Assembly (NCBI GenBank): GCA_023443625.1
Contig: JAEZTQ010000028.1
Location: 1 to 64,000, forward strand
DNA: 64,000 nt
Direction: 5' to 3'
DNA from: Bacillota bacterium
GTDB lineage: Bacteria > Bacillota_A > Clostridia > Lachnospirales > Lachnospiraceae
The notes under the pieces are model-generated. The model searched no databases and was not told the DNA's origin. It saw only the letters and a list, made by a program, of their open reading frames with translations. The position numbers were made by a program, and so were the translations under genes. Positions 40,844-58,868 of this stretch are shown piece by piece; the stretch's first letter is position 1; every line of letters starts with the position of its first letter.

Positions 40844-40844
40844 T
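40805..40844 (+). repeat. attachment site, left copy (overlaps ssrA 3' end)
   Basis: 40 bp beginning ATGGGCTTTCGGACAGG and ending CAGCTCCAT, covering the T-arm and 3' acceptor strand of tmRNA. Identical to 50252-50291. Confidence 0.9.
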
Positions 40845-40994
40845 CAGTTAAAACAAGTGAAAAGCCTGTAATTACAGGTGTTTGAACGGATAAGGGATAC
40901 TAACACAGATTAGAACACTGTGGGGGTATCCCTTTTTTTGCCCCTACATATCCATACTGTTCTGCTATCTAAAAAAATCATAGGAGATAGTAGT

Positions 40995-41972
40995 ATGGCA
41001 AAGACAACAGGCATCTATAGTGTGGAGGCTGATATTAAACTGTTCAAGCAGGGGATAGCTACAAATACACAGCCTACTTATGATGGAAAAAGTTTTGACA
41101 AAGCAATGGATGTAATTTTTAAACAAATGAAAGTTAGTGGCTATAGAGACAGAACAATAACAGACTATAGTTACTATATGGAAAAGCTCAGAAAGTTTGC
41201 AGATTTACAGTATCTTGAGGATATAACAGCTGATACTATATATAATTGGCTTGACTCAATGACTGTTTCTAATCAAAGTAAATTGATTAGACTTAAGAGT
41301 GTTGAAGCAGTATTGGGCAAATGTTTTAATAATGGTTGGTATAGCTCAAAATTTTGGCAGGACATAAATGTTAAAGTTGACAAAAAGGTCAAAAAAGGTA
41401 CAAAACCTGATGATATCAATATTCTATTGTCATTGCTAAACTTAAATACATTTGTTGGACTGAGGGATGCAGTAGCTGTTTTGGTATTGTACAGAACAGG
41501 AGTAAGAATAAATACCCTTGCCAAATTACAGGAGAAACACTTAGACCTTGACAATAAATTGCTGAGTATTGAGGGAGCAATATTAAAAAACCATAAGCTG
41601 TTAAAGCTCCCCTTAGATGATGAACTAATTCATTTGTTAAAGATATTAATTGCCCATAACAACAAGATAAGAAAATATTTTGGGCAAAATAACTCTTACC
41701 TTTTTATTAACAACAAGGGTCAATCTCTAGATACAAAGTCAACCAACAATGCAATATCTAAACAGTTAAACAAATATGCTAAAAAATATGGATTAGATAA
41801 TATCAACCCTCATGCAATGAGGAGAGGATATGCAAAGAACTTACTAGAAAAAGGAGCAAATGATGCATTGATTTCAAAGGCTTTAGGACATGCTAATCTA
41901 GAGGTCACAACTCAATATCTTGACTTGGATGTAGATGAGGTAGCAGGTAATTTAAGAGGTTTTTTGTCATGA
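40995..41972 (+). CDS. int: tyrosine recombinase (integrase)
   Basis: 325 residues from ATG 40995 after AGGAGAT. Core-binding domain (about 40-130) and catalytic domain with the full set R171 (TGVRINTL), H273-x-x-R276 (HAMRRG), H299 (LGHAN) and Y308 (QYL). Located right beside the ssrA end and reading inward, the classic place for the integrase of a tRNA/tmRNA-targeting element. All Arg codons are AGA/AGG because the gene has no CpG at all. Confidence 0.93.
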   Translation: MAKTTGIYSVEADIKLFKQGIATNTQPTYDGKSFDKAMDVIFKQMKVSGYRDRTITDYSYYMEKLRKFADLQYLEDITADTIYNWLDSMTVSNQSKLIRLKSVEAVLGKCFNNGWYSSKFWQDINVKVDKKVKKGTKPDDINILLSLLNLNTFVGLRDAVAVLVLYRTGVRINTLAKLQEKHLDLDNKLLSIEGAILKNHKLLKLPLDDELIHLLKILIAHNNKIRKYFGQNNSYLFINNKGQSLDTKSTNNAISKQLNKYAKKYGLDNINPHAMRRGYAKNLLEKGANDALISKALGHANLEVTTQYLDLDVDEVAGNLRGFLS

Positions 41973-42079
41973 TACAACTATTATCCAATTTATATATCAC
42001 TGAGTTTTTCAAGGTAGTTTGTGCAGAGTCTAATGAGAGTTGTATTGTTACACAGTATTAACAGCAGGGGAGGATTTAT

Positions 42080-42319
42080 ATGGCAATAGCAAATTTAAGT
42101 AATGCTGAGATTAGAATGTATCAGAACAGTGATGAGGGCAGGGCATACCTTGAATATCATGCTAAGACAGGAGGAGAGCCTTATGGATATTGCATAGGTA
42201 TCCCTTATGTAGATGATATTATAGGACTCTATAATAAGTGCATCAAAGAGGACAAGACATGGTATGAGGTTCTAGGAATAAGTCAGGATGCTAACTTTGA
42301 TGAGATACCTCTTGATTAA
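42080..42319 (+). CDS. hypothetical protein of the element
   Basis: 79 residues, ATG after GGGGAGG. Soluble, acidic, starts MAIANLSNAEIRMYQNSDEG and has an aromatic patch GEPYGYCIGIPY. Not recognised. Lies just after the integrase; directionality factors are often in this place, but no helix-turn-helix is obvious. Confidence 0.6.
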   Translation: MAIANLSNAEIRMYQNSDEGRAYLEYHAKTGGEPYGYCIGIPYVDDIIGLYNKCIKEDKTWYEVLGISQDANFDEIPLD

Positions 42320-42484
42320 TAGCCTGTATATTTAAGGGTTTACTGAGGGTGGATAGGGATAACCTATCTGCTCTTTTATGTAAATTACATTGGTAATAAA
42401 CATTTAAGTGATGTATAATAATGGAATATATAAGATGTCAGGGATAACTATTACTAAAGTAAATTACAAAAAGGAATTAATTGA

Positions 42485-42922
42485 ATGGAGATTATATTTT
42501 GGATTATTGTAGGTATTTTATTCTATTGCTTTGGACTATTTGTAGTATATATAGCAGACAATGATATAAATAGAATGATGAGAATGTCTAGGCTAGAGTT
42601 GTGTGTAGCAATGCTAATTTCCATTCTATTATGGATTTATGAGAGTTATAAAATGAATAATTGGAGCATTCTTACAGACAGATATTCAATTATCTTAATC
42701 TAATTTTTAGTCTTTAATGTTGTATTATTGTTGATAATTGGAAGCTTTTATAAGTGGAAAGAAAGAAAAAATAATAATTCATATTATGCACAATATCATA
42801 GAAAATCCAATGACTATTTCTCTCTAGAAAATGCAGCATTTAGAGTTTATACATTTTCTTTTGTGACTGTATTAGCAGGTACAATATGGATTACATATAG
42901 CATAATAACTAAATACAAATAG
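42485..42922 (+). pseudogene. three-helix membrane protein interrupted by an in-frame TAA
   Basis: Two open stretches, 42485-42703 (72 aa) and 42728-42922, are in the same frame with a single TAA (42701-42703) between them. Reading through gives one 145-residue protein with helices at about 4-25, 38-53, 72-92 and near the C-terminus; the TAA falls at the start of a hydrophobic helix (FLVFNVVLLLIIGSFYKW). A nonsense mutation in a formerly intact gene is the simplest reading. No family recognised. Confidence 0.6.
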
Positions 42923-42967
42923 TGGATATAATATTAATCAATATGCAATGGAGTTAGAGGAGGAGAT

Positions 42968-43600
42968 ATGCCAGCATACTTTTCAATTGAGGTTAGCTTT
43001 AAGAAGAATATATTAAACAAAACATTTGTAAAGGATATTTATAACACCCTAGATAAATCTGGTTTCAGATTTAAAAGTGGATATTGGTTTGGAGAAGATA
43101 TGTCTTTAGAGCAGATAATTGATTGGAACCAAAAACTACTTGAAAAAAAGTTTGAACTTGATTTTAAACAACATGTGAAATTTGATTATAAGCAAATACT
43201 GCTTGATACTTCTAGCTACAGTCATATGAGAGCTTTCTGGATGTATTTAAATAAAAGAATTAATTTATCCATCATCATTCCTGAATATGATGTCCTTTCA
43301 GATGAGAATAGCATAATGTTTTTAACAAATAAAATTAGTCCAATTATTGATTTATCCTGTAATATATGGGACACAGGAATGGTATCTAGTATTCAATCAT
43401 GTTTGGAACTAGATGCAGGAGTTGATTATGAAAGGTTGGATAAAGGTGAATTACCTACTATAAATCCATTTTGTATTATTGAGAAAGACATCTATCAAGA
43501 TATAAATCCTGCAAAAAAAGATAAATTTACTGTTAGTGAGATTAATAATAATGGGGTATTACTAGTTGATAATTGCAAAATAGATAAATTACATTCATGA
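42968..43600 (+). CDS. hypothetical protein of the element
   Basis: 210 residues, ATG after GAGGAGGAG. Soluble alpha/beta-type sequence with clusters such as SGYWFGEDMSLEQII and SSYSHMRAFWMYLNKRINLSIIIPEYD. No signal peptide or membrane helix. In composition it resembles standalone immunity-type proteins, but this is only an impression. Followed by two small genes. Confidence 0.7.
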   Translation: MPAYFSIEVSFKKNILNKTFVKDIYNTLDKSGFRFKSGYWFGEDMSLEQIIDWNQKLLEKKFELDFKQHVKFDYKQILLDTSSYSHMRAFWMYLNKRINLSIIIPEYDVLSDENSIMFLTNKISPIIDLSCNIWDTGMVSSIQSCLELDAGVDYERLDKGELPTINPFCIIEKDIYQDINPAKKDKFTVSEINNNGVLLVDNCKIDKLHS

Positions 43601-43739
43601 GTAAAGTCATAACAGAAACAATAATGGTGATTTTGCATTGATATTAAGAGGTTGGATTAGTTTATTATAGTGGGTGTAGAAATTAAAACAATCTGCTTTT
43701 CTTTAGTAATTTTATAATGTTTATACAAGGAGGTAAGAT

Positions 43740-43904
43740 ATGCAGGAATTAAATGAAATTCTGATAGAGGGATGTGTTGATGTAAGAGAAAACCCAATTT
43801 CAGCTGATGAATTTACTGATAAATTTATACACTGGATTGAAAGTAATGGATGGTATTTTGGTGGAGGTATTAATCCATTTAAAATAGATGAAGATATCAA
43901 GTAA
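43740..43904 (+). CDS. small acidic protein, DUF469/YggL-like flavour
   Basis: 54 residues, ATG 43740 seven bases after AAGGAGG. Sequence begins MQELNEILIEGCVDV and contains DEFTDKFIHWIESNGWYFGGG, reminiscent of the FIE...GL.FGGG pattern of YggL proteins. The next gene's ribosome site overlaps its stop, so the two are likely translated together. Function unknown. Confidence 0.6.
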   Translation: MQELNEILIEGCVDVRENPISADEFTDKFIHWIESNGWYFGGGINPFKIDEDIK

Positions 43905-43913
43905 GGAGTGACT

Positions 43914-44240
43914 ATGAATTATAAGTTGTATCATGGAATAAATATTGAGAAGTTAGTGAAAATTGTGCCTACTAAATATAAAAACTTAATAACAAAAGTT
44001 CCTTTAAATAGAGTTTCAGATGTAGTGATTTTTCCTGTTGATAAGGTGATTTTATCCAATAAGATTAAAAAAGCTATTGATAGTCTGGAAGAGTATCCAG
44101 AGAATAAAAGGATTTTCATAGGTTATAATTTTACAGCAGAGGCTAAAAGTATTATGGTAGAAAGTAATGTTGAATTTTTTGAATTTCACAATTTTTATTG
44201 GACAGATGAGTCCTACAATAACATTAGGCAAAACATCTAA
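43914..44240 (+). CDS. hypothetical protein of the element
   Basis: 108 residues from ATG 43914, five bases after AAGGAG; a GTG six bases earlier overlaps the site. Soluble, Lys-rich, with DVVIFPVDKVILSNKIKKAI and a C-terminal aromatic part FFEFHNFYWTDESY. Not recognised. Confidence 0.6.
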   Translation: MNYKLYHGINIEKLVKIVPTKYKNLITKVPLNRVSDVVIFPVDKVILSNKIKKAIDSLEEYPENKRIFIGYNFTAEAKSIMVESNVEFFEFHNFYWTDESYNNIRQNI

Positions 44241-44398
44241 AGATGAAAGTTGTACATATAGTTAGTGGATAGAGAAATCTATCTACTCTTTTTTTATAAG
44301 TTTATATGGATATATATTTATAATTATTGTATAATAATGGAACAAATTATAATGTATGTGTCTATTAAATAGTAACTATAGAAAGATTGGTGGAATAG

Positions 44399-44809
44399 GT
44401 GAGAAAAAGAATTTTAATATTAATTGCTATAATCTTAATTATTGGTATTTTATTTACATACTTTAAAATTTCTAGCCTAAAATTTAATTTGAATTCTAAT
44501 GAGATATACAGTATTGAATATAGCTTTGATTGTTATAGTAATGGCATTGGCTATATAAAAGGGGAGGTAACTGATAAAGAAATCTTAAATAATACAGTAT
44601 CATACCTCAATAAAATATCTCTACTAATATCTTTTACAAAAACTAAAGGAGCAACTCAATGGTTAGGTTTTAAGGATAAGAATGGTAATCTCATTAAAGG
44701 TTATGCATTTGGTTGTGGAGATTTATGGGTTGGAAATAAGACATATATGTTTGGAGATGCACAAATCAATAAAGTAAAAGAACTTCTGAATGTTAATGAT
44801 AAAAAATAA
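44399..44809 (+). CDS. membrane-anchored hypothetical protein
   Basis: 136 residues from a GTG with a weak site. N-terminal helix (about 4-22, ILILIAIILIIGILFTYF) as uncleaved anchor, then a small extracytoplasmic domain rich in Gly, Asn and aromatic residues (GATQWLGFKDKNG, GCGDLWVGNKTYMFG). Not recognised; could be a small surface or immunity protein. Confidence 0.6.
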   Translation: MRKRILILIAIILIIGILFTYFKISSLKFNLNSNEIYSIEYSFDCYSNGIGYIKGEVTDKEILNNTVSYLNKISLLISFTKTKGATQWLGFKDKNGNLIKGYAFGCGDLWVGNKTYMFGDAQINKVKELLNVNDKK

Positions 44810-44831
44810 TACTATATAGTTTGTTTTTACA

Positions 44832-45371
44832 ATGAAAGGAATTAATGTGGAAATTGGTTATGTTGCTGTAGAAACATTTTTAACAACAGAAAAATATAGA
44901 GAATGGAGCAAGTTACATCATGTGAAAGAAGTTGTTTCACTTGATTGTGCTTTATGTCCAAATGTACTAGATAATAATAATGAGGATGATTTAATATACT
45001 TGCAGAATGATGGTTTTTATTATGATATCGTGAATAATTTAGATAAGCTTATAAGCAAAGTTCAAAATGTTAAGGATAAACAAATCTTGGCAGTATCAAG
45101 AAATCCTGAAAATGATTGTTCTAATTTAATAATTGATGGTAGGTTTAAGTTCTATGGTTATGATTTACTTGAGGATGATACAAGAATAAGTGCTTTAGTA
45201 AACTGTGGTGGTTTTGATAAGGCATTTAATCCACAGGACATATCTGAGTATGGTCTTATTAAGGATTTTAAAAAAGCCAAAGAAGTCCAGTTTCTGCTGG
45301 CTAATGAATATCCTTATGAAAATCATGTATTTTGTACACTATGGGCTATCTGGAAGATGAAAGATATATAA
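44832..45371 (+). CDS. hypothetical soluble protein of the element
   Basis: 179 residues. Contains DCALCPNVL, a middle section VKDKQILAVSRNPENDCSN and GYDLLEDDTRISALVNCGGFDKAF. No membrane part. It holds one of only two CpGs of the element (45029). The reading resembles small immunity or SUKH-type proteins, without a firm match. Confidence 0.65.
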   Translation: MKGINVEIGYVAVETFLTTEKYREWSKLHHVKEVVSLDCALCPNVLDNNNEDDLIYLQNDGFYYDIVNNLDKLISKVQNVKDKQILAVSRNPENDCSNLIIDGRFKFYGYDLLEDDTRISALVNCGGFDKAFNPQDISEYGLIKDFKKAKEVQFLLANEYPYENHVFCTLWAIWKMKDI

Positions 45372-45559
45372 ATAATAATTTGACAGTAATGATTTTGTGT
45401 TACCATTATATTACATCCAAAGTATTTTTTATTGTGTATATTTTCCGTATGCCTCATCCCTGTTCCTCCTACCCCTCTCCCCCTGTACTCCCTTTAGCTT
45501 TAACTGCCAAGACTGCACAGAACCTAATCTATGAAAGTGATTTGTAAGAGTATCCAATC

Positions 45560-45625
45560 AAGTATACTATAATGGACAATGCTGTATTTACTGAGTTTGC
45601 AGGCTTTATAGTGTCCATTTATTGC
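45560..45625. promoter_or_regulatory. candidate resolution site of the serine recombinase
   Basis: Two inversely oriented copies of a TATA(A/G)TGGACA-like motif (near 45,567-45,578 and 45,606-45,620) lie about 45 bp before the recombinase ATG. Such repeats upstream of a resolvase are typical binding sites. The remaining 45,372-45,668 interval has a C-rich stretch at about 45,454-45,492 and no convincing gene. Confidence 0.35.
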
Positions 45626-45668
45626 TGATAATATAGTATATATAATTGAACAGCAAGGAGATGACAAA

Positions 45669-46244
45669 ATGATTATTGGTTATGCAAGAGTAAGCTCATC
45701 AAGTCAGGACTTATCTAGTCAAATTAAAGCCTTACAGGATGCAGGAGCAGAGCAGATACATCAGGATAAGCTCTCAGGTAAGGACTTACATAGGGCAGGT
45801 TTAAAGCAGACCTTAGAGAGTTTACAGCAGGGAGATACTCTGATAGTTACAAAGATGGACAGAATAGCAAGGAATGTTAAGCAGGGAATAGAGCTGATTG
45901 ATGAGCTGAACAGCAGGGGTATTATTCTATATGTCCTTAATATGGGCAGGTTTGACAGCTCCCCTACATCTAAGCTATTAAGAAATATATTGCTCTCTGT
46001 GGCAGAGTGGGAAAGAGAGATGATACTAGAGAGACAAAGAGAGGGCATAGAAATAGCCAAAGCTAATGGAAAATACTCTAATAAACCTAGAAAGTATCAT
46101 CCTAAACATAAGGGCATGGCTCATGCTATAGAGCTGTTAGCAGATAGAGCTAATAATAAAATGACTGTAAAGGACATCTGTGATATTTGCAAGGTAACAA
46201 GGAGTAGCCTTTATATGAAAGCTAAGGAGCAGGGAGTACTTTAG
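45669..46244 (+). CDS. serine recombinase (resolvase/invertase family)
   Basis: 191 residues, ATG after AAGGAGATGAC. Catalytic S9 in YARVSSSSQD, then DKLSGKDLHR, TKMDRIARN and the long E-helix, ending in a Hin-type helix-turn-helix (MTVKDICDICKVTRSSLYMKAKE). Full length for the small resolvase/invertase group. It probably resolves multimers or co-integrates of the excised element, or inverts a segment. Confidence 0.93.
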   Translation: MIIGYARVSSSSQDLSSQIKALQDAGAEQIHQDKLSGKDLHRAGLKQTLESLQQGDTLIVTKMDRIARNVKQGIELIDELNSRGIILYVLNMGRFDSSPTSKLLRNILLSVAEWEREMILERQREGIEIAKANGKYSNKPRKYHPKHKGMAHAIELLADRANNKMTVKDICDICKVTRSSLYMKAKEQGVL

Positions 46245-47670
46245 TAATTGATATGTTGAGCAGGGGGTATATCTCTGCTCTTTTTACTGTCTGATGCTAA
46301 GCTGTCCTTGATAAAGTTGTCAGGCTGTAAGCTCTCTCCTCTATACTGTTTCCTCTGCCTGTAGCTGATTAATAACAGCAGGAGGGAGGGATGCAGGAGC
46401 TGTATATCATAGGTATCTTATGTTATTCATATTGCTACAACAGATTACAACAATGCTATCAGAGGCTTATACTGTAAGGGTTTCAAGCCTTAGCCTGCTA
46501 CTTTATGTTATTAAAACTTTTATATCTTTCTGTATCCTGACAGGAATAAAAGATGGGTGTAATAGCCTCCTCTATCTGCCTACAAATATTATAACTATTT
46601 CCTATGCTACACTAAGAGCAATTACAGGAGGCTTAGTTACTGTCATTCTTGGATTAATCAGCCTGTTCCTGCCTTATTTCTGATATTTTTCAGGTTGTGC
46701 AGGCTCTGCATTTCTTGGACTTTTCAGCTTATAAAGAACTAAAATGTTCTCTGTATTAAAACAGCCTCAACCTGCTTATTTACAGCATTTTGAGTACTGA
46801 TTATAGCTGATATCTATAGAAATGTCTGACATCTAATAATCCAACATCAGCAATATTTCTAGAGGTATTTTCAGCAATTATTAACAGGAGATTATATCTC
46901 TGACAATCTTGGGTAAATAGCTACAGCAGGGATTATATGTACTTATTTCAGGGTATAAAAAAAGAGCCTCTACTATGGCACTAAGACCAAAGTAAAGGCA
47001 TTAATCAGGTACAATACAGCTCATACAAGGATACAACAGCTTAAAGTAAAGGAGAATATTTAGCCAAATTAAAAGCTTATTACCTTGGCTTATCTGCTTA
47101 ATAGTGCATCAGATGAGGCAGGAATAAAGTTACTGCTTAACTGTCTATATCTCTTTATTATTGTTTAATAACTACAATATCTATCTGTATTATTTTTACT
47201 GATGTCTGAGCTTTAGCTCAGTATGTTTTTATCTTTATGGTTTGATACAATAGTATCAGACAGACTTATCCTTAAATCCTTATCAGGATTACATCTTATT
47301 TAATTTAACTGAATTATTTACTTTCTTATTTTACAGTTTATATAACAGTTATTATAGCTCTTATTTATCTATATATATGTCTAACTACAAAACTGCTCTT
47401 AAAGTACTGATTAGCAGGTATTTGTTTCCACAATATAATTAACCTCTACAATGCACTGTTTATAAGGCTTACAGACATTTAGTTAATTGATGGTAATTAC
47501 ATAGTGGTACTTTAAGAAATTAATAGGTTATTGCTACTAATAAAATAGTGTTATCAAATTTGGTATAAGAAAATCATTTATCTATAGTTCTTAATATTAA
47601 GTGGATATTGATATTTGGAAATAAATGCTTTATGATATAATTAAATAAAACATTACAAAGGAAACAGAGT
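46245..47670. other. 1.4-kb gene-poor region of the element
   Basis: No ORF with a ribosome site. It is entirely free of CpG yet rich in CAG/CTG-type words. Small perfect hairpins: CTGAGCTTTAGCTCAG (47206-47221) and TGATAC/GTATCA (47243-47248, 47253-47258). Possible roles are replication origin, transfer origin or decayed genes; nothing decides between them. Confidence 0.45.
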
Positions 47671-48486
47671 ATGTATAATTGGATAAAAGATAACAAAAAA
47701 TTAAGTTGCTTGATTTTGATTATGTCTGTATTAGGGCTTACTTATATAATAAATATTTTATATAAAATAGATGCTTTGAATTATTGGTTTGAGGCAGAGT
47801 GGAGTCCTGGAGAATTTTTAACTTACTTTGGTAGTATATTAGCTTTTGTTGCTACTATTATATTGGGGTATTCAACCTTGGTAATAAATGAGAGGGCAAC
47901 AAATTTAAGTGAAAAGCTAGTAGAAATGCAAAAAAATAGTGAGAAAGCAATTGCTGTAATTAATGTTAATGAGAAATTATTGTTTTTCACTAAAAATAGA
48001 GATCCAATACTGATAAATAGGCTAGCACAGAATGGGGTTGACTTTTCTGTTGATTATATAGAAGATACATACTCAACTAGAGACATTATGATTATGGAAT
48101 TTTATTTAATTAATATGACTGATAATATTATTACTAATATTAACTTAAAACAATTTAATATAATTCTTGATGATGAAGAGGATACTGTAATAAAACCATT
48201 AAAATGTGATGATGGATGTGGAGTAATACTGGGTAAATTAGAAAGTATCAAAGTAAAAGTAATTCTTACTGGTTTAAAAGACCACCTTAATGCTGATAAG
48301 TTCAGATATTTTGATTATTATTATGGTTTTGATATTAATTGTGTTTTTAGTTTTCAAAACTTATATAATCAAGTAAATGAGATTAATATTACAATAGGAA
48401 CAGAAAAAATAGCAGATGTAAAACAACTAGGAAAAAATATATATAAAATATTTATTAGAGATTTTTCTGAAATAAAAAATAATTAA
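47671..48486 (+). CDS. two-helix membrane protein, unknown
   Basis: 271 residues. Two N-terminal helices (about 12-32 and 49-69: GSILAFVATIILGYSTLVI) lead into a coiled-coil stretch NLSEKLVEMQKNSEKAIA, then a beta-rich cytoplasmic domain of about 180 residues. The architecture occurs in many phage- and element-borne proteins with no known role; a defence or signalling sensor is possible but unproven. Followed by a good terminator. Confidence 0.7.
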   Translation: MYNWIKDNKKLSCLILIMSVLGLTYIINILYKIDALNYWFEAEWSPGEFLTYFGSILAFVATIILGYSTLVINERATNLSEKLVEMQKNSEKAIAVINVNEKLLFFTKNRDPILINRLAQNGVDFSVDYIEDTYSTRDIMIMEFYLINMTDNIITNINLKQFNIILDDEEDTVIKPLKCDDGCGVILGKLESIKVKVILTGLKDHLNADKFRYFDYYYGFDINCVFSFQNLYNQVNEINITIGTEKIADVKQLGKNIYKIFIRDFSEIKNN

Positions 48487-48523
48487 CTACCAGCTAATAT
48501 CATAAATAGTTGGTAGTTTTTTT
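48485..48523 (+). terminator. terminator inside the element
   Basis: AACTACCA (48485-48492) pairs with TGGTAGTT (48511-48518), running into seven T. Confidence 0.8.
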
Positions 48524-48739
48524 ATGCTCTAAATTCTGTCACAGCTTTTATCTGTACCTCAAATGTATATGTATGAATATATCAGCTATTTACCTGTACA
48601 GGGCAATATATAAGGATATTCCATCAATTCCCTCCTTGATTTTAACTATTGTAGATGGACATATATGTGAGGGGATAAGGGGGTAATCCTCTTTATGCAG
48701 ATAACAGACAGTATTATATTTTAAAGGAGTATGATTAAA

Positions 48740-49147
48740 ATGGCAGATTACACAGGAAAGACAATTCAACAGATGAACAAGGAGAATTTAAAGAGAATTA
48801 GTGAGCAAGTAGCCAAAAGACAGCAGGAAAGTGCAGAAAGATTTGCTAAACTTTCTAATGGTTTGGGTACAGCTTTTTCTAAGAATTATGATTTGGCTGA
48901 GGTGACAAATACTGCTAAAGGACTCTTAGAGGGTAAGATTGATGCAAAAAAGATGGGTAAAGATTGGTGTATAGAATATACTGCTATTTGTAAAATGGCA
49001 ATTAAAGACCAAGATTTAAAATTACTTGAATTAAAAACATCAGCAGGTATGGCTTATCTGCAAAACAGAATTGAGAGCTATAAAAAACTACAGCAAGAGT
49101 ATGAAAATGTTGATGCTACTATCAACCTTTTAAGGACATTTATTTAA
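48740..49147 (+). CDS. helical hypothetical protein
   Basis: 135 residues from ATG 48740, ten bases after AAAGGAG; ATG 48731 would be too close to the site. Almost wholly helical, with coiled-coil character at both ends (KRISEQVAKRQQESAERFAKL; YKKLQQEYENVDATINLL). No domain recognised. Perhaps a structural or regulatory partner of the next DNA-binding-type gene. Confidence 0.65.
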   Translation: MADYTGKTIQQMNKENLKRISEQVAKRQQESAERFAKLSNGLGTAFSKNYDLAEVTNTAKGLLEGKIDAKKMGKDWCIEYTAICKMAIKDQDLKLLELKTSAGMAYLQNRIESYKKLQQEYENVDATINLLRTFI

Positions 49148-49220
49148 TTTTATATCAACTGTGCAGGGGGGCAGATAATGCCTCCTTTATTTATCAGTAG
49201 TAAGGGAGGAGAGCTACCAG

Positions 49221-49652
49221 ATGGCTAAGGGAAATAAAAGTAGCAAAGATACTATTGAGGAAATAGAAGATAGACTTGACATAGTTTTGTTTGAGTGCCT
49301 TGAAATACTGAAAATGAACAGTAAAAAGAGGTTGACTAGAAAAGGTATTATTGACATTTACCCTGTTCCTGTTATTTCAAAGGATTGCCTTACAGTACTA
49401 GGTGTACAGTATCTTCCCAACAGAAACCTGTATCTACCTGATGAGATTTTTTGTAGGCTTGTCTATTGGGATGATTTCCTTGAGTCTACTGCTAAAAATG
49501 CTAAAAAGAGAGCTAGACCTACAGCAAAGGATGCTAAAAAGTGGGCAAGTATGAAAGATGCAGGAATGAAACTCAAAGAAATTGAGGAGCTTACAGGGAA
49601 AAAAAGCTCTACCATTTCATATTACATTAAAAAATATGCAAAGGCTGTATAG
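49221..49652 (+). CDS. helix-turn-helix protein of the element
   Basis: 143 residues, ATG after GGGAGGAG. The C-terminus (about 100-140: KWASMKDAGMKLKEIEELTG then SSTISYYIKKY) is a Hin/resolvase-like helix-turn-helix, preceded by a Lys/Arg-rich linker KNAKKRARPTAKDAKK. Likely a DNA-binding regulator or excision factor. The small gene at 49667 starts 14 bp downstream. Confidence 0.7.
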   Translation: MAKGNKSSKDTIEEIEDRLDIVLFECLEILKMNSKKRLTRKGIIDIYPVPVISKDCLTVLGVQYLPNRNLYLPDEIFCRLVYWDDFLESTAKNAKKRARPTAKDAKKWASMKDAGMKLKEIEELTGKKSSTISYYIKKYAKAV

Positions 49653-49666
49653 GAGGGATGCAGATA

Positions 49667-49813
49667 ATGAGTAAGTATAAGCAAGCAGATTTAAAGAGTG
49701 AGCTCAAGTCCTCAGGAGGATACAGCAAAAGTAAGGGTAAATCTCCACAGGAAAGAATAATCAGACCTTTAACAAACAAAGAGAATGGTAAAATGTCTAA
49801 GCTCAGCAGATAA
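49667..49813 (+). CDS. small basic protein
   Basis: 48 residues, ATG nine bases after AGGAGGG. Lys/Ser-rich (MSKYKQADLKSELKSSGGYS...), predicted disordered. Coupled to the preceding helix-turn-helix gene by position. Not recognised. The remaining 49,814-50,236 interval before the right end shows no gene. Confidence 0.5.
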   Translation: MSKYKQADLKSELKSSGGYSKSKGKSPQERIIRPLTNKENGKMSKLSR

Positions 49814-50251
49814 TAACAGGGGAGGCAGATGGCTTACAGAGAGCTACTGTCTCTCTTTTCTGCTATTTGTACAGAGATAACTTAAAAGTTTCCTCTTTAT
49901 CTTTCCAACAGATAGTTAATTCTACATAGTCATCAAATGTAAATATAACAACCTCTGAAAAGATAGAATGGCTAAATTTAGTAAGTAAAGTATTGGGTAA
50001 AACCTCCATATATAAGGGCTAGGGCACAGTGTGTCTTAGTCCTCTTTTTTAATAATCCTTGACTTTTGTTTCACTATTTATTAAGCTTAAGTTGATAATA
50101 GAACTGGTACAGGATTTGTTCTAATCTCTAACTAGGTATCTTACATGCATAGATTTTTTATGCATTTGTTCAAAAGCCTTAATATTACTGGTGTTTGACT
50201 GATAAGGGACAGTTATTAAAGGTATAAAACAATTTGGAGAAACTGCGATGA

Positions 50252-50291
50252 ATGGGCTTTCGGACAGGGGTTCAACTCCCCTCAGCTCCAT
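50252..50291 (+). repeat. attachment site, right copy (displaced ssrA 3' end)
   Basis: Identical to 40805-40844. Upstream similarity extends to 50237 with two differences. It is followed by the original ssrA downstream sequence. Confidence 0.9.
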
Positions 50292-52538: not shown

Positions 52539-53785
52539 ATGAGTGAATACTCTGAATTAATTAAACGCTTTGATAAAATTCGAGACTATATGCGTGATTT
52601 TTATGTATATGGTTTTATGTCACGGGAAGCTTTCAAACATAAAAAAGTTTGCGTTCCTACGATAATGAAAAGAGAAGAATTGAAAGTTATCTTTCGGAGT
52701 ATATGTCATTTCGTGTGGATGAAAACGGTAAATCGGTATTTCTATCAGTTGACAGCTCGGATATTTCTCATAACCCGCTTTATCGTGCCTTTAAATCGAA
52801 GACCTTTACAAAGAATGATATTACTCTTAATTTTATAATTCTTGACATTCTGTATGATAAAGCAGCTGCATCTGCAGTAGAGATTGCGGATACCATCATG
52901 GTAGAATATTTAAGCTTCTTTGATTATCCTGTTATTCTGGACATATCGACAGTCCGTAACAAGCTTACTGAATACGAAACGCATGGAATTCTTGCTACTC
53001 AGAAGCAAGGGAAAAAACTTTTATACTCCTTAAATAATACAGTGATTGATTTGAACAATATATCTGATGCACTGATATTTTTTTCAGAGGTCAGCCCCCT
53101 TGGAGTAGTCGGAAGTTATCTTCTTGATAAATGTATCTATGATAATAAATTCATATTATACAAGCATCATTATATTATGCATGCTCTTGAAAGCGAAATT
53201 GTATATGAGTTGCTAAAGGCAATTCATAACAAGAGGAAAGTAGAGATTATAAATCACAGTAAACGATCTGTGGATCCGATTTCACTTGAAATAATTCCAC
53301 TTCGATTTATGATTAGTGTACAGGGTGGAAGACGTTATTTGGCTGCTTTTAGTTTTAGATCAAAAGCTATACTAAGTTTCCGATTAGACTATATAAAATC
53401 AGTAAAGTTAATGGAAGTATGTGATGATTATAATTTTCATGAGGACGGACTGAATGAGATTTTACCAAACACTTGGGGAGCATCGTTTGGCAGAGGAAGA
53501 AACCTGGAACATTTAACGATGCTTTTGGACATTGGGCTTAATGAGCGTTTTATTATAAGTCGTATTTTGAGAGAGGGCAGAAACGGTACCTTAACTAAAG
53601 TAGATGAGACTACATACAAGTATAAGGTTTCAGTATATGATACGACTGAAATGATACCTTGGTTAAGGACATTTACCGGAAGAATATTATCTCTTGAATG
53701 CAGTAATAAAGCAGTCGTCCGCACCTTTTATCATGATTTGAATGAACTCTATTCCATCTATGGAGGTGATTTTGATGTTGTTTAA
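52539..53785 (+). pseudogene. WYL-domain transcriptional regulator A, frameshifted
   Basis: Two frames are needed. From ATG 52539 the sequence reads MSEYSELIKRFDKIRDYMRDF...REAFKHK, then the other frame continues with RSYDNEKRRIESYLSEYMSF, the normal continuation in this family. The switch falls at AAAAAA (52641-52646): one extra A, or a -1 slip, restores one protein of about 415 residues. The restored protein has an N-terminal winged helix and a WYL domain (RRYLAAFSFRSKAILSFRLDYIKSV). Either a disabled gene, a phase-variable A tract, a slippage-expressed gene, or a sequence error. It overlaps regulator B by 11 bp. Confidence 0.75.
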
Positions 53786-54701
53786 CGAAATATATAGTGC
53801 TTATTATAATGCATTGGCGGTACTGATTAATAGGGCAATCGACGGAGAGCTGAATTCTCGAAATGCATATGAGTTTATTAAAACGGAGGCGTTTAGAGAA
53901 AGCTTTGTCTATATTATGGATGCAATACAAAAAGAACAGTGGCAGGTTATAACCAAAGAATTTAAAACTCCAATCAAAAATTATACAAGGATGCCTCTCA
54001 CAACGTTGCAAAAACAATTTCTAAAATCAATCAGTTTAGATAAAAGATTTGCACTTTTTACCAATGGTATCATAGAGGGCCTTGATGATGTGGAACCTCT
54101 TTATGAGGAAAAGGATTTTTACTGTTTTGATCTGATTAATGACGGAGATCCTTATGAAAGTCCGGAATACATTGAAGTTTTCAAAAAAGTATTAAGTGCT
54201 TTGAAAGAAAAGAGAAAGCTACATATAACCTTTACTGATGGCAAAGGGAACAATCAAAGAAAAGTATGTATCCCACGAAGGTTGGAATATTCTGAGAAGG
54301 ATGACAAATTCAGATTGCTTTGCTTAGGTGTTCATAGCTTATCAACGATTAATCTTGCAAGAATCAAAAGTTGTGAATTGTGGGATTACTTTGATGAAAT
54401 GGCTTTAAAACCGCTGACACGGAACAAAGAAAATATCGTTCTAGAAATAACGGATGAGCGTAATGCTCTGGAAAGATGCATGCTTCATTTCTCGAATTAT
54501 GAGAAAGTTACGACACAATTTGATGAGAAACATTATGAAATGAAATTGACCTTTCCTAAGGATGATGAAACAGAGGTCTTGATCAGAGTTTTATCTTTTG
54601 GTCCCTTAGTCAAGGTAAAATCCCCGGATCATTTTATTGGGTTAATAAAAGAAAGGTTAATGCGACAAAAAGAGTTAGTAAATCAAGTCATACCTAGTTA
54701 G
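53775..54701 (+). CDS. WYL-domain protein B
   Basis: 308 residues from ATG 53775 after GGAGGTG, inside the end of WYL A. A helical N-terminal half of about 150 residues without a clear helix-turn-helix, then a WYL domain (about 155-225, KLHITFTDGKGNNQRKVCIPRRLEY, FRLLCLGVHSLSTINLARI) and a C-terminal WCX-like region. WYL domains bind nucleotides or nucleic acids and control stress, defence and repair genes. With WYL A it probably controls the slipin-rtcB operon just downstream. Confidence 0.85.
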   Translation: MLFNEIYSAYYNALAVLINRAIDGELNSRNAYEFIKTEAFRESFVYIMDAIQKEQWQVITKEFKTPIKNYTRMPLTTLQKQFLKSISLDKRFALFTNGIIEGLDDVEPLYEEKDFYCFDLINDGDPYESPEYIEVFKKVLSALKEKRKLHITFTDGKGNNQRKVCIPRRLEYSEKDDKFRLLCLGVHSLSTINLARIKSCELWDYFDEMALKPLTRNKENIVLEITDERNALERCMLHFSNYEKVTTQFDEKHYEMKLTFPKDDETEVLIRVLSFGPLVKVKSPDHFIGLIKERLMRQKELVNQVIPS

Positions 54702-54719
54702 TCTGGGTATGATTTTTTT
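54688..54719 (+). terminator. terminator after the WYL pair
   Basis: TCATACC (54688-54694) pairs with GGTATGA (54706-54712), then seven T. It separates the regulator operon from the RNA/slipin/rtcB unit. Confidence 0.8.
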
Positions 54720-54725
54720 AGTTCG

Positions 54726-54770
54726 CAACTTTTTTTCAATGATACATGTAAAAAAAGGTTGTAATATAAT
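54726..54770 (+). promoter_or_regulatory. promoter and operator of the tRNA-like RNA and slipin-rtcB unit
   Basis: A good TATAAT (54765-54770) has only a poor -35 (ATACAT at 54742-54747). Over the -35 region lies an inverted repeat, CAACTTTTTTT (54726-54736) and AAAAAAAGGTTG (54750-54761). A weak -35 with a symmetric site suggests activation or repression by the WYL proteins. Confidence 0.6.
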
Positions 54771-54775
54771 CTTGC

Positions 54776-54973
54776 AAGGTTGCTTTTGCATGGAATTGCA
54801 AATTCCTGCGGTGCACAAGGCGATGCCGAAGTGTATGCCAAGAACAATTGCATGGGGTTCAACTCCCCGAACGAGCTGTAACTCGTCCATGGCATGGATA
54901 AATGCAGGTTCGAATCCTGCTCTGAGCATATTGCTTAGCCTTGGTTGGAAAATGACTTTGTAAAAAGTCTTTT
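54776..54973 (+). ncRNA. tRNA-like structured RNA upstream of slipin-rtcB
   Basis: Two tRNA T-arms are visible: TGGGG-TTCAACT-CCCCG (54853-54869) and GCAGG-TTCGAAT-CCTGC (54904-54920), the latter with a canonical TTCGAAT loop. Before the second come a D-arm-like hairpin ACGAG/CTCGT (54871-54886) and a short anticodon-arm-like stem CCAT-GGC-ATGG (54887-54897) with only three loop bases. Further hairpins are GGAATT-GCA-AATTCC (54792-54806) and GGC/GCC (54819-54827). The ends can pair: GCAA..TGCT (54774-54784) with AGCA..TTGC (54925-54934). A stem GACTTT/AAAGTC plus TTTT (54954-54973) may end it. No acceptor stem of a normal tRNA closes, so it is a tRNA mimic, comparable in idea to the tRNA-like module of bacterial Y RNAs linked to RtcB. 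Confidence 0.65.
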
Positions 54974-55200
54974 GTCAGGAACGGCCTAATAAGCCGGACA
55001 AATGAATGGAATAAGCAGATGTTTTTGGGAAAAGAAATAATACGTTTTCTTGAACCCAGTACAGCTTTTGCCCTGTCGGATCGTGGATACCGACCGATCG
55101 ATATGAGATTCAGAGCATGACTCCCAATCTCATACTTGATAGTCTAAAGCCTTCTGCCGCAAAAGCTGTATGAAACATTTGCTTGAACACGAAATTATTA
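54971..55200 (+). ncRNA. second structured RNA segment in the slipin leader
   Basis: Hairpins in order: TTTGTC..CGGC / GCCG-GACAAA (54971-55002); TGGG..AAGAAA / TTTCTT..CCCA (55026-55058); and a perfect 11-bp closing stem TACAGCTTTTG (55060-55070) / CAAAAGCTGTA (55160-55170) enclosing GTCGG/CCGAC and the 9-bp TATGAGATT/AATCTCATA (55102-55134). No ORF. It may be a separate RNA or the structured 5' leader of slipin. Confidence 0.55.
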
Positions 55201-55216
55201 TAGGGAGGATACATAG

Positions 55217-56314
55217 ATGAAAATGATAATTAATGAAAATCAAAGAGGACTACTTTTTAAAAACGGTAAATACGAAAAGATGCTGGGGCCGGGAAAACAT
55301 AGTTTTCTTTCACGAAATTTTACCGTAAAAATTATGAATATTGCAGATGAATTTAAGCTGGAAGATTTTGATTTGAATGTATTTTTGAAGGACAAAATTT
55401 TAAAAGGGCAACTGGAGATAGTGGATGTTGCTGATCAAACGATAGCACTTCACTACATAAATGGAAAATTCACCGATTGCCTGACCAGTGGCAGGTACGC
55501 TTATTGGAAAGTATTCCAAAACCATAAGTTTGAGACAATCGATATGAAAAATCCAGAGGTACCGGATGAATTTCCGAAATATATTTTTGATGTTTTGCCA
55601 AGAAGATTGTTCTTTAAGGTAGAGGTTGCCGGATATCAGAAGGCAAGGTTATACTATGACCAAAAATATGTTAAGCTTTTAAATGAAGGGACCTATTACT
55701 ATTGGAATAATGGAACAAAAATTAGTGCTAACCTAGTGGACACCCGTCTGTTGCAGATGGATATTACAGGACAGGAGATTCTGACCTTAGATAAGGTGGC
55801 ACTGCGTATTAATTTTGTAAGTCACTATAAAATCACGGATTATATTAAGATTTTCACGGAAATAGATAATTATGAGGAGCAGATGCATGTATCTCTGCAG
55901 CTCATACTTCGTGAATATATCGGAAAATACCGACTGGATGAAATACTTGAAAGTAGGGAACAAATCGCTGATTATGCATTCCAAAAACTAAAGGAGAAGG
56001 AAGAAGACTTTTATGTCAAGTTTTATGATGCCGGCGTAAAGGATATTATTCTTCCGGGCGAAATTCGTGATATTATGAACACAGTACTGATAGCTGAAAA
56101 AAAGGCTCAGGCAAATGTGATAGCACGCCGTGAGGAAGTGGCATCGACAAGAAGCTTGCTCAATACTGCCAAGTTGATGGACGAAAATCAAACATTATTT
56201 AAATTAAAGGAATTTGAGTATCTGGAAAAGATATGCGAAAATGTCGGTAATATTACAGTCAACGGAGGAACAGATCTGATTTCCCAGTTGACGAATATTT
56301 TAAAAGGAGCTTAG
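55217..56314 (+). CDS. slipin / SPFH (band 7) family protein
   Basis: 365 residues, ATG seven bases after GGGAGGA. No membrane helix. Two related N-terminal segments (about 1-60 and 75-175, each with the pattern RGLLFKNGKYEKMLGPGKHSF / KARLYYDQKYVKLLNEGTYYYW) precede the SPFH domain (about 185-290, LTLDKVALRINFVSHYKI, GVKDIILPGEIRDIMNTVLIAEKKAQAN) and a helical tail. SPFH proteins form membrane-associated rings; soluble slipins with this build are found next to rtcB. A scaffold role in the repair unit is inference. Confidence 0.9.
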   Translation: MKMIINENQRGLLFKNGKYEKMLGPGKHSFLSRNFTVKIMNIADEFKLEDFDLNVFLKDKILKGQLEIVDVADQTIALHYINGKFTDCLTSGRYAYWKVFQNHKFETIDMKNPEVPDEFPKYIFDVLPRRLFFKVEVAGYQKARLYYDQKYVKLLNEGTYYYWNNGTKISANLVDTRLLQMDITGQEILTLDKVALRINFVSHYKITDYIKIFTEIDNYEEQMHVSLQLILREYIGKYRLDEILESREQIADYAFQKLKEKEEDFYVKFYDAGVKDIILPGEIRDIMNTVLIAEKKAQANVIARREEVASTRSLLNTAKLMDENQTLFKLKEFEYLEKICENVGNITVNGGTDLISQLTNILKGA

Positions 56315-56536
56315 TGTGAATTATTAAAAAGCATAATTCACACCTAGAAGTTTGTGCCTGCGTAATCCTCGGCACAAACTAACTCAAAGGGAAGGCATGT
56401 ACTGTTAGTGTGAAAATACAAAGCAAACTTAACACTTTGAGAACCACGAAGCTCGCCCAGAAGGGCTCACCCTTGGTTCTCAAAGTGGTGAAAAAACATA
56501 ATCCATTTACGGGTTATTTAGGCCGCATCGAAGATG
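56314..56536 (+). other. hairpin cluster between slipin and rtcB
   Basis: Four perfect stems in about 220 bp: GTGTGAATTA/TAATTCACAC (56314-56323, 56334-56343); AGTTTGTGCC/GGCACAAACT (56349-56358, 56371-56380); CACTTTGAGAACCA/TGGTTCTCAAAGTG (56433-56446, 56474-56487) with inner GCCC/GGGC; and GCATC-GAA-GATGC (about 56524-56536). No poly-T follows any of them, so they look like an RNA processing or regulatory region rather than terminators. Confidence 0.6.
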
Positions 56537-56552
56537 CAGCAGGGAGGCTATT

Positions 56553-57755
56553 ATGATTGAAATAAAAGGAACTTACACCTCTGCAAAGGTGTTTACAGAT
56601 ACAATTGAAGAGGTTGCCATAGAGAAGATTAAGCAGCTGTGCGATATGGAATATACTGAAGGATCAAAAATTCGAATTATGCCGGATGTCCATGCCGGTG
56701 CCGGTTGTACGATCGGCACAACCATGACGATCTCTGATAAGATAGTCCCAAATCTTGTTGGTGTAGACATCGGCTGTGGAATGGAAACCATACGGATTAA
56801 AAATAAGCACATCGAGTTAGAAAAGTTAGATAAATTGATTTATGCTAAAATACCGTCCGGTATGAATATACGTGAAGCACCGCATAAATATAATGATGAG
56901 ATTGATTTAAGTGAACTACGCTGCTATAAAGAAATTCATGAACATCGGGCAATTCACTCTATTGGAACACTTGGAGGCGGTAATCATTTTATCGAGGCTG
57001 ATAAGGATGAAGAAGGTAATATCTACATCGTAATTCACTCGGGCAGCCGTTACCTCGGTAACGAGGTTGCAAAACTTTATCAAGAGATGGGATTTAATCG
57101 CCTGAATGGAAATGATAAAAGAGCTCTTGACAATTTAATTACGGAATATAAAGCAGCAGGTAGAGAGAAAGAAATTCAAACAGCAATCAAGGAATTAAAG
57201 AAACAGGTTCTTACGAATATTCCGTATCCTCTTGCCTATGTCAGTGAAGATTTATTTGAAGATTATATTCATGACATGCAAATTGTTCAGCACTTTGCTA
57301 CGCTTAATCGTAAAGCTATGGCGGATGAAATTATTCGTGGAATGAAATTGAATGTCGCAGAACAATTTACGACAATCCATAATTATATTGATACAGAAAA
57401 TATGATTTTACGCAAAGGTGCAGTATCTGCAAAGCTTGGAGAGAAACTTCTGATACCAATCAATATGCGTGACGGAAGCCTAATCTGTCTTGGGAAAGGG
57501 AATGAAGATTGGAACTGCTCTGCCCCACATGGCGCTGGAAGACTTATGAGCCGTACACAGGCCAAAAATACCTTTACTGTTTCTGAGTTCAAAAAGCAAA
57601 TGAAAGATATCTATACAACTTCGGTAAATAAGGAAACACTTGACGAATGCCCAATGGCCTATAAAGATATGACCGAAATTATTAAGGATATCACACCAAC
57701 AGCAGATATCTTAAAAATAATAAAGCCAATTTATAATTATAAAGCAAGTGAATGA
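56553..57755 (+). CDS. rtcB: RtcB RNA ligase
   Basis: 400 residues, ATG with GGGAGG upstream. All active-site elements are present: D72 and C75 in GVDIGCGM, H145 in GGGNHF, H162 in HSGSR, H276 in IHNYID and the guanylated H326 in SAPHGAGR. RtcB is a Mn2+/GTP-dependent ligase joining 2',3'-cyclic-phosphate or 3'-phosphate ends to 5'-OH ends, as left by ribotoxins and tRNA-cutting nucleases. It is the short bacterial form. No RtcA cyclase is seen. Association with WYL regulators, a tRNA-like RNA and slipin suggests repair of cleaved tRNA. Confidence 0.95.
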   Translation: MIEIKGTYTSAKVFTDTIEEVAIEKIKQLCDMEYTEGSKIRIMPDVHAGAGCTIGTTMTISDKIVPNLVGVDIGCGMETIRIKNKHIELEKLDKLIYAKIPSGMNIREAPHKYNDEIDLSELRCYKEIHEHRAIHSIGTLGGGNHFIEADKDEEGNIYIVIHSGSRYLGNEVAKLYQEMGFNRLNGNDKRALDNLITEYKAAGREKEIQTAIKELKKQVLTNIPYPLAYVSEDLFEDYIHDMQIVQHFATLNRKAMADEIIRGMKLNVAEQFTTIHNYIDTENMILRKGAVSAKLGEKLLIPINMRDGSLICLGKGNEDWNCSAPHGAGRLMSRTQAKNTFTVSEFKKQMKDIYTTSVNKETLDECPMAYKDMTEIIKDITPTADILKIIKPIYNYKASE

Positions 57756-58106
57756 TTTGAGATATTTAATTTCTAATATTTAAAATAAGTAAAAATGTAA
57801 TATATTTTATGAAAACAGCGAAAAATTTCTAAAGGACCTTTCAATTATTTTAGGTGTTATAGGTGTTTTGCTTATATTAATCAGTAAATACATATAATGT
57901 TATTTGGGGTAGGGTTTCAGAATAACCCCTACCTCTAGATTATCTGTCAGGAGAACTTCATTTTATATTTAATTATTTTACTTTGAGTATCATTATGCTA
58001 TTATAATAATTATACTAAAGAACGGATAGTAGACAAGTAGGAAATATGAAATCTAAATGTCCGATTCTTATACAATAACCAACCCCATATAGGAGGTGTT
58101 ATAAAT
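57756..58106. other. intergenic region after rtcB
   Basis: Contains a hairpin GGTAGGG (57909-57915) / CCCTACC (57928-57934) that may end the rtcB transcript, though no T run follows. Nothing else recognised before the Fic ribosome site AGGAGGTG. Confidence 0.4.
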
Positions 58107-58868
58107 ATGATAAAGCAAGAACTGTTTCAAAAAGCTGATTATTATAAAAATATGATTGACATGAATAGGCCATTTAAGGCAGAGCAGCTTCTAGAATTGG
58201 ACAATTACTTTAGAGTTGAACTTACCTATAGCAGTAATTTTATTGAAGGAAATACGTTAACGCATACAGAAACAAAGGTTTTATTAGAAGATGGTACCAC
58301 CCTTGGGGGAAAGCCTATAAAAGATTATTATGAAGCATCCGGACATGCACAAGCTTATGACTATATGTTAGCTATGGCTAGAACAGAACAACTTGATATT
58401 ACTGAAGATATCATTAAAAAATTACATTATTTATTCTATCATAAGCTTGATCATGAAGAGGCAGGTCAATATAGAAAAAACCAAGTTTATCTGTCAGGTA
58501 CAGAATATTTACCACCAAAGGCAGAGGAGGTATCGCATTTGATGGAGCATTTTATTAATCAGATGCAAAGCTCAAGAAGATTTATTCATCCCATTGAATT
58601 TGCTGCCATATGCCATAAGCGTTTGGTAGACATTCATCCATTCAAAGATGGGAATGGAAGAACCGCTAGGTTATTAATGAATCTAATCTTGGAAAATACA
58701 GGGTATGGGATTACTTCTATTCCTCCTGCACTTAAAAATGAATATATCAATGCATTAATATTATCTCAAAGAGAAAACAATCCCAATATTGATACCTTGA
58801 TAGAATTTATTGTGGAGTGTGTAATTGAAACAGAAAGAGATTATTGCAGATTATTAAGAATAAAATAG
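58107..58868 (+). CDS. Fic family protein (probable AMPylase), class II type
   Basis: 253 residues. The Fic core motif HPFKDGNGR starts at H177 and is intact. An N-terminal inhibitory helix motif S-x-x-x-E-G-N (SSNFIEGN, about residues 44-51) is present, as in class II Fic proteins, so activity would be switched off until the helix moves. The flap segment QYRKNQVYLSGTEYLPP is complete. Fic enzymes transfer AMP or other phosphate groups to target proteins. Target unknown; link with rtcB is by proximity only. Confidence 0.9.
   Translation: MIKQELFQKADYYKNMIDMNRPFKAEQLLELDNYFRVELTYSSNFIEGNTLTHTETKVLLEDGTTLGGKPIKDYYEASGHAQAYDYMLAMARTEQLDITEDIIKKLHYLFYHKLDHEEAGQYRKNQVYLSGTEYLPPKAEEVSHLMEHFINQMQSSRRFIHPIEFAAICHKRLVDIHPFKDGNGRTARLLMNLILENTGYGITSIPPALKNEYINALILSQRENNPNIDTLIEFIVECVIETERDYCRLLRIK

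Follow-up and report, generated by a model that had tools for sequence, protein, structure and literature searches.

The window, by which we mean the whole analyzed stretch of 64,000 nucleotides (nt) from contig JAEZTQ010000028.1 of a Lachnospiraceae bacterium, carries on its + strand, in this order, genes for two WYL regulators (WYL1 and WYL2), a gap of 515 bases, a gene for a slipin (Band-7/SPFH), a spacer, and genes for an RtcB RNA ligase and a Fic protein. The WYL2-slipin gap contains an operator-like sequence and a structured RNA whose tRNA-like core appears to be circularly permuted. The features of this locus are as follows:

52539..53785, + strand: WYL1 gene including its out-of-frame start, whose first ~36 codons occupy 52539 to about 52640
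52649-53785, + strand: WYL1 regulator gene, open frame (Pfam WYL, E 1.1e-7)
53742..54701, + strand: WYL2 regulator gene, start by homology at 53775, with a structure model matching DriD, PafBC, BrxR and CapW
54685..54715, + strand: terminator-like hairpin (an inverted repeat) closing WYL2
54722..54742, + strand: putative operator TTCGCARCTTTTTTTCnRTGA, 21 nt, before the RNA
54762..54767, + strand: -10-like TAnnnT, 39 bases from the start of TCGCA
54772..55181, + strand: structured RNA of about 400 nt, its ends estimated from conservation
54788..54839, + strand: helices of the 5' domain of the RNA (GGUGC..GUAUGCC), from covariation
54854..54868, + strand: first T-arm-like hairpin, absent from some relatives
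54904..54920, + strand: T arm of the permuted core (Rfam tRNA T-arm match; covariance model R1)
54921..54938, + strand: closed acceptor stem abutting the T arm, 7 pairs with a 3-nt loop
54939..54948, + strand: D-arm-like CC-UUGGUU-GG, with only 2 pairs in the window
54954..54969, + strand: hairpin after the D arm, with a GUAA tetraloop in the window
55052..55181, + strand: 3' domain of the RNA (covariation; covariance model R2)
55217..56314, + strand: slipin (Band_7/SPFH; Pfam Band_7)
56315..56552, + strand: slipin-RtcB spacer of 238 bases with strong hairpins, judged by fold energy
56553..57755, + strand: RtcB ligase (Pfam RtcB, E 6.9e-65)
58107-58868, + strand: Fic protein (Pfam Fic), ~350 bases past RtcB

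A genome-collection scan with a slipin alignment yielded at least 80 related loci at 47-66% identity; all 80 listed loci were found via the slipin, and closer relatives may be absent from the list. By their record titles these are mostly from Clostridia, with others including Coriobacteriales (L003), Lentisphaerae (L041), an uncultured bacterium (L042), Kroppenstedtia (L075) and Paenibacillus (L078). The recurring order among them is WYL1-WYL2-[RNA]-slipin-RtcB: WYL2 is present, on either strand, in 47 of the 60 listed loci with at least 3.6 kb of upstream sequence, and RtcB lies no more than 900 bases after the slipin in 41 of the 67 with at least 0.9 kb downstream. A sequence-only reading of this DNA had staked its proposal of an RNA-damage response locus on the linkage of these genes and on the intergenic structures, and a search for the gene order together with a covariance analysis found both to be conserved. 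The set and order of genes that it gave likewise stand, with Pfam recovering WYL1, the slipin, RtcB and Fic and a structure model pointing to a WYL2-like protein, except that the WYL1 frame is interrupted. Its call of an intact RtcB is borne out by alignment to the solved enzyme 1uc2, in which the catalytic motifs DIGCG, GGGNHF, HSGSR and HGAGR are all kept. Fic, which it had counted as a possible member, drops out of the module, having no tblastn match in any of the 80 listed related loci, some of which end before the far-downstream sequence. Ro60/Rsr, RtcR and RtcA are not among the 10 open reading frames of the window that were scanned against Pfam. A Pfam scan of WYL2 gave no match; its structure model is confident (predicted local distance difference test, pLDDT, 85.9), and the 32 PDB matches at E<=1e-3 are DriD, PafBC, BrxR, CapW and the CRISPR-related 6oaw, all with template-modeling (TM) scores of at most 0.61, DriD and PafBC being the best matches at these low scores. 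Since the sequence-profile link between WYL1 and WYL2 has a probability of only 7%, their kinship rests on the WYL2 model and the Pfam match of WYL1. Profiles of WYL1, WYL2 and DUF2828 (a protein of certain related loci) recovered nothing firm from the sequences of solved structures (WYL2-PafBC E 0.1).

The tRNA-mimicking RNA that had been read in the WYL2-slipin gap is upheld by the comparative data, and extends beyond what was then described in that it reaches about 55180 and has a permuted core. No family in Rfam attains its cut-off within the gap of the window; the most credible match, to Rfam tRNA positions 43-63, covers the T arm (15.2 bits, E 3.3, against a cut-off of 29), and the matches at E<=10 in 54650-55230 include no Y RNA family, from a library whose Y RNA models were not checked. 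A T-loop motif is present in 55 of 56 WYL2-slipin gaps, that of the window included, and in an alignment of the 39 gaps shorter than 600 bases the conserved blocks span their whole length. The fold energy of 54755-54990 in the window is modestly low (z -2.22, equaled by 3 of 200 shuffles). Covariation separates all three parts of the RNA from their controls. For the 3' domain, 37 of 42 pairs have both partners changed in one or more of 39 sequences, with a score of 0.630 versus 0.209 in shuffled and at most 0.171 in slid controls; for the 5' helices the values are 9 of 14 pairs and 0.290 versus 0.134 and at most 0.097, and for the core, in an alignment of 26 sequences, they are 11 of 16 pairs and 0.418 versus 0.214 and at most 0.123. 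Against the slid control the tested structures are at an advantage, as they were derived from the same sequences, by RNAalifold for alignments A5 (39 of 41 sequences, L072 and L073 being left out) and A6 (39 of 42, without L002, L032 and L059) and by eye for the core alignment A3. The latter consists of 26 of the 54 cores of A2 with acceptor strands aligned by MAFFT and is biased toward that group; A2 itself retains 54 of 75 candidate cores after removal of those with long acceptor loops and of doubtful ones, and A4 holds all 84 R1 matches fitted to the structure, false ones such as some ordinary tRNA genes included. A chance or fossil tRNA in the gap is rejected on the grounds of covariation. 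An ordinary tRNA is likewise rejected, with ARAGORN reporting only a transfer-messenger RNA (tmRNA) in the window and no tRNA among 92 T-arm cores read as lines, as is a known Rfam RNA. The predicted structure of the RNA and its operator are well supported.

The core has an unusual order, with the T arm followed without a gap by a closed acceptor hairpin and then by the D-arm-like CCAGUGGUUUGG. This would be the order of a tRNA opened between the anticodon and T arms, or between the D and anticodon arms, with its acceptor end closed by a loop, which is 3 to 8 nt long in most cores (3 to 16 were permitted). In a test on all 75 sources that have a strict T arm, a hairpin abutting it scores at least 8 in 39 (mean 4.85, maximum 10 in 200 shuffles of the downstream 40 bases) and at least 6.5 in 57 (mean 15.4, maximum 25); in these 57 sources, chosen for pairing, all six acceptor positions show several Watson-Crick pair types. 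When the segments were closed into circles with their ends in the acceptor loop, ARAGORN called tRNAs in 17 of 73 sources, compared with 2.3 on average and at most 6 for 20 control sets with shuffled flanks around the T arm, and it made zero calls on the same T-arm segments read as lines. R1, a covariance model built from 26 sequences excluding the window, has the core as its single match in the window (54903-54951, 36.9 bits, E 1.2e-7) and falls below E 1e-4 in 58 of 81 sources, namely all 26 seed sequences and 32 of the other 55; its weaker matches include ordinary tRNA genes. The clearest case by eye is L077, in which an acceptor, a D arm of canonical form and a GUU-bearing anticodon arm can be recognized; it received an ARAGORN circle call in the main test, as did L074 and L075, with L078 being called only in a looser run. 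In 20 of 81 sources there is a hairpin of at least 4 pairs with a CUGUNAN loop, versus 0.54 expected (maximum 3 in 100 shuffled sets); inspection places these hairpins ahead of the T arm, on the acceptor loop or past the D arm. Canonical YUNNNRA loops occur in 44 of 81 versus 15.4 (maximum 24). As an anticodon arm the window hairpin after the D arm was rejected, the GUAA tetraloop being the better fit.

The RNA goes with the slipin. Wherever it was found it lies on the same strand as the slipin and upstream of it, an extra gene intervening in several loci (L031, L036, L044, L059, L061, L065). R2, the covariance model of the 3' domain, scores the window, a member of its seed, at 93.7 bits and matches 40 of 42 slipin loci outside the seed, some of them devoid of WYL or RtcB genes; the match in L078 is weak (E 0.004), and the slipin loci L057 and L075 gave none. 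R2 further matches 7 distinct genomes, one of them known from the slipin scan, in each case directly upstream of a slipin. RtcB is the looser partner. For one relative, R2 matches came from 2 of 299 genomes sampled from its family and 6 of 391 sampled from its class, the relative itself being counted in both samples and stricter filters dropping weak matches; the locus is a rare accessory.

Ahead of the RNA lies the putative operator, TTCGCARCTTTTTTTCCGTGA, the single copy in the window at up to 3 mismatches (0.03 expected). The separate promoter region with an inverted repeat, proposed in the sequence-only reading, is retained as the RNA's own promoter region, and the repeat at 54685-54715 is reassigned to the terminator-like hairpin of WYL2, the operator starting at 54722. 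Scored with a matrix built from 33 of the sites scored afterwards and at a threshold set by the analyst, the operator occurs in 56 of 56 sources with a same-strand WYL2 upstream, in 2 of 3 with a divergent WYL2 and in 3 of 6 in which the contig is cut; the TAnnnT element stands at an identical distance from it in 29 of 33 sites. Where WYL2 and the slipin share a strand but stand more than 2 kb apart, as in five loci, it is found twice in L025, L056, L061 and L069 and once in L068, the doubled copies standing one before the extra gene(s) and one before the RNA. In L056 a DUF3825 gene (L056:3750-5519, - strand) lies between WYL2 and the RNA, with the second operator copy upstream of this stretch. 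With up to 1 mismatch, the pattern has 18 matches in 13 of the 18 genomes of relatives (about 62 Mb) versus none for the reversed control, and 16 of these adjoin WYL2, slipin or DUF2828 genes, with L102 and L106 as exceptions; as these genomes were chosen for holding the system, the informative point is the scarcity of further operator sites. In L102, from a genome that has the system, a lone operator on the - strand at 1520 precedes an open frame that has no match to the module proteins. The constant presence of the operator before the RNA in sources with a same-strand WYL2, together with a Citrobacter locus (L113) in which RtcR is divergent from a slipin and a nucleotidyltransferase, supports the earlier proposal that WYL proteins take the place of RtcR.

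Some related loci suggest a second type of RNA under the same operator. DUF2828 proteins, which are Ro60-like (the Pfam name being taken from two of them), occur in 4 of the 80 listed loci, and Ro60-like DUF2828 genes are preceded by arrays made up of 2 to 5 Y-RNA-like units that contain tRNA pieces and have end stems that covary, the unit pattern having been composed after inspection of those leaders. The arrays lie at:

L025:3383-3905: Y-RNA-like array
L036:108-635: Y-RNA-like array
L061:2906-3166: Y-RNA-like array
L069:3682-3828: Y-RNA-like array
L083:1061-1434: Y-RNA-like array

The operator is found upstream of those in L025, L061, L069 and L083. The notion that the tRNA-like RNA takes the place of Y RNA is supported in part by these loci, some of which pair a Ro60-like protein and Y-RNA-like units with the same operator. 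Outside Firmicutes, relatives in proteobacteria combine a slipin with a nucleotidyltransferase, as in Citrobacter L113 and E. coli L112 and L116, the last sitting between yjbD and lysC with a T-arm-bearing leader; of 5,426 complete E. coli genomes, 1,624 contain a match to this leader-slipin-nucleotidyltransferase locus. L112 and L113 each have a leader in which a 6-pair hairpin comes within 1-2 bases of the end of the T arm and by eye differs between the two by a compensatory change (ATTCAT/ATGAAT versus TTTCAT/ATGAAA); R1 gives them only weak scores (14.4 and 13.5 bits), and ARAGORN on circles found nothing in these two leaders. In the Burkholderia locus L114 a tRNA-like RNA can be read by eye in normal order.

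Among the remaining neighbors, RlaP, a Pfam name taken from one protein and tied by Pfam to RNA repair, follows RtcB or the slipin in 5 of the 80 listed loci. A family of ~210-residue proteins stands beside the slipin in 8 of the 80 (e.g., L031:5231-5977 and L059:5340-5978), and Pfam gave nothing firm for the two members scanned. Three proteins (P0013, P0035, P0050) are slipins with additional copies of the N-terminal half. The slipin-RtcB spacer of the window, strongly structured by fold energy (z -5.03), a feature not in the earlier reading, had no Rfam match up to E 1 and is shorter in most relatives. Upstream in the window, 40486-50290 contains a tmRNA gene and a tyrosine integrase, with the 3' end of the tmRNA repeated at 50252; the stretch appears to be an element that integrated at the tmRNA gene. 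As the carrier of the locus this element was rejected: it seems to stop about 2.3 kb before WYL1, because the 30-base piece of the tmRNA 3' end recurs at 50252 and the integrase follows the tmRNA. A phage origin was also rejected, a tblastn search with the slipin against 50,697 phage records giving zero matches.

The combination has partial precedents. Burroughs and Aravind, in the abstract of their 2016 work, reportedly described SPFH/Band-7 modules with a novel tRNA-like molecule, and the link between Band-7 proteins and tRNA-like RNA was probably first proposed by them. Their module reportedly shares with the present locus a Band-7 protein, a tRNA-like RNA and an RNA-repair enzyme; the WYL pair, the operator, the permuted order and the 5' and 3' domains may set the window locus apart. 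As far as can be told, the present analysis adds the WYL operator, the DUF2828 array, the delimitation of the whole RNA and the recognition that its core is permuted. Our literature searches recovered no paper joining RtcB, slipin and WYL and none joining DUF2828 and TROVE; further searches, judged by titles, abstract openings and selected passages, gave none on the WYL-RNA-slipin-RtcB arrangement. The rsr-yrlBA-rtcBA operon with RtcR, as presented in passages of PMC7790460, also unites RtcB, a tRNA-mimicking RNA and an inducible regulator; compared with that account, the window has the WYL pair for RtcR, the slipin for Rsr/Ro60, and no RtcA in the 10 open reading frames. A slipin beside RNA-repair genes, as here, is found in the rtc locus of Pseudomonas aeruginosa with the SPFH protein PaFlo8, in an excerpt of PMC13086221, and in the enterobacterial slipin-nucleotidyltransferase loci, two of whose leaders have a T arm and hairpin upstream; these latter differ in that RtcR instead of WYL is adjacent in Citrobacter and in that R2 has no match in the proteobacterial loci L112-L114. 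PafBC and DriD are WYL activators, and PafBC, according to passages of PMC11804915, is a heterodimer activated by single-stranded DNA that substitutes for the usual -35 contact; the pair of the window differs from them in its motif and targets. Circularly permuted tRNA genes share with the RNA the placing of the 3' half ahead of the 5' half, and, as set out in parts of PMC3978253, their precursors require ligation at the junction; relative to them the RNA of the window is bacterial, tRNA-like, often lacking an anticodon loop, and embedded in a larger RNA.

The conserved system is real. For its function, we propose, with roughly even confidence for and against, that the locus is an inducible, WYL-activated tRNA-repair module in which slipin and RNA act as a scaffold for RtcB; tRNA-cleavage sensing, repair and the scaffold mechanism are what we infer. 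WYL1 and WYL2, the latter by its modeled fold, would form an activator similar to PafBC and DriD, a pairing and mode of action that we infer by analogy to PafBC. This activator would bind 54722-54742 and bring RNA polymerase to the -10-like promoter, with the operator occupying the -35 area; a nucleic-acid fragment that the WYL domains bind is a possible inducer. The transcript would start with the ~400 nt RNA and probably continues into slipin and rtcB because a simple scan of the window shows no + strand terminator in between. Covariation indicates that the RNA folds into a 5' domain, the permuted tRNA-like core and a long 3' domain. The open side of the tRNA shape would coincide with the position of the anticodon arm, and the RNA would therefore resemble a tRNA broken at the anticodon. 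Slipin oligomers might hold this RNA as a scaffold collecting damaged tRNA and RtcB, which would reseal the breaks.

Several observations weigh against this interpretation. RtcB is missing within 900 bases of the slipin in 26 of the 67 assessable listed loci. The WYL1 frame of the window is broken near 52640-52655, where 20 of 20 aligned relatives are continuous, through either a sequencing error or a true interruption. The operator is present in 8 of 16 sources with no WYL in reach, and its pattern is unmatched in 5 of the 18 genomes of relatives. In the core alignment A3, the count of further pair types is reached by 190 of 500 shuffles and shows no excess over them. The most tRNA-like distant members (L070, L074, L075, L077, L078) score 13.9-19.2 bits with R1, roughly the T arm alone, and their permuted reading rests on inspection and ARAGORN. 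The hairpin after the D arm has a canonical 7-nt loop in just 8 of 74 sources, the others having a GNRA/UNCG tetraloop (13), other loops (48) or no hairpin (5).

In one alternative the RNA would serve as bait: anticodon nucleases would cut its anticodon-arm-like hairpins instead of tRNA, and the cut or resealed RNA would report the attack. The excess of CUGUNAN hairpins and YUNNNRA loops over expectation speaks for such a bait, but the former are missing in 61 of 81 sources and the window itself has a GUAA tetraloop; as the canonical loop after the D arm is rare, the anticodon is not a constant part, and bait is therefore unlikely as the main function. We consider it similarly improbable that the RNA is a cis-acting leader of slipin and rtcB, with RNase P, RNase Z or tRNA-binding proteins acting on the mimic to set expression. 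Its same-strand position upstream of the slipin and the lack of a + strand terminator between the two in the scan of the window would suit such a leader, but another gene separates them in the six loci named above, the RNA is retained in loci without RtcB, and a big multi-domain fold would be costly for this role. The permuted order, the neighboring RtcB and the junction ligation of permuted pre-tRNAs described in parts of PMC3978253 would also fit an RNA that is itself a substrate, circularized or matured by RtcB or another ligase like the permuted pre-tRNAs of algae. This we regard as very unlikely: a CCA end would hardly fit in the short acceptor loops, the anticodon loop is missing from many copies, and RtcB is not beside the slipin in the 26 loci already mentioned.

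Retaining the tRNA-repair scaffold as the preferred interpretation, we advance as a doubtful extension of it that one Clostridia WYL operator family controls two kinds of repair particles, one of slipin and permuted tRNA-like RNA and the other of Ro60-like DUF2828 proteins and Y-RNA-like arrays whose units would each present another part of a tRNA; their RNAs would mimic tRNA to sense or capture cut tRNAs, and RtcB would seal the captured RNA and possibly the permuted RNA too. The function of Ro60 proteins and Y RNAs in bacteria and the targets of RtcB in most of them are, to our knowledge, still open questions, on which a conserved rotated-tRNA RNA tied to a slipin and a defined operator offers a handle. 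The E. coli relatives of the slipin locus make the system accessible to tests in that organism, and a bacterial permuted tRNA core other than that of tmRNA would broaden the known range of permuted RNAs.

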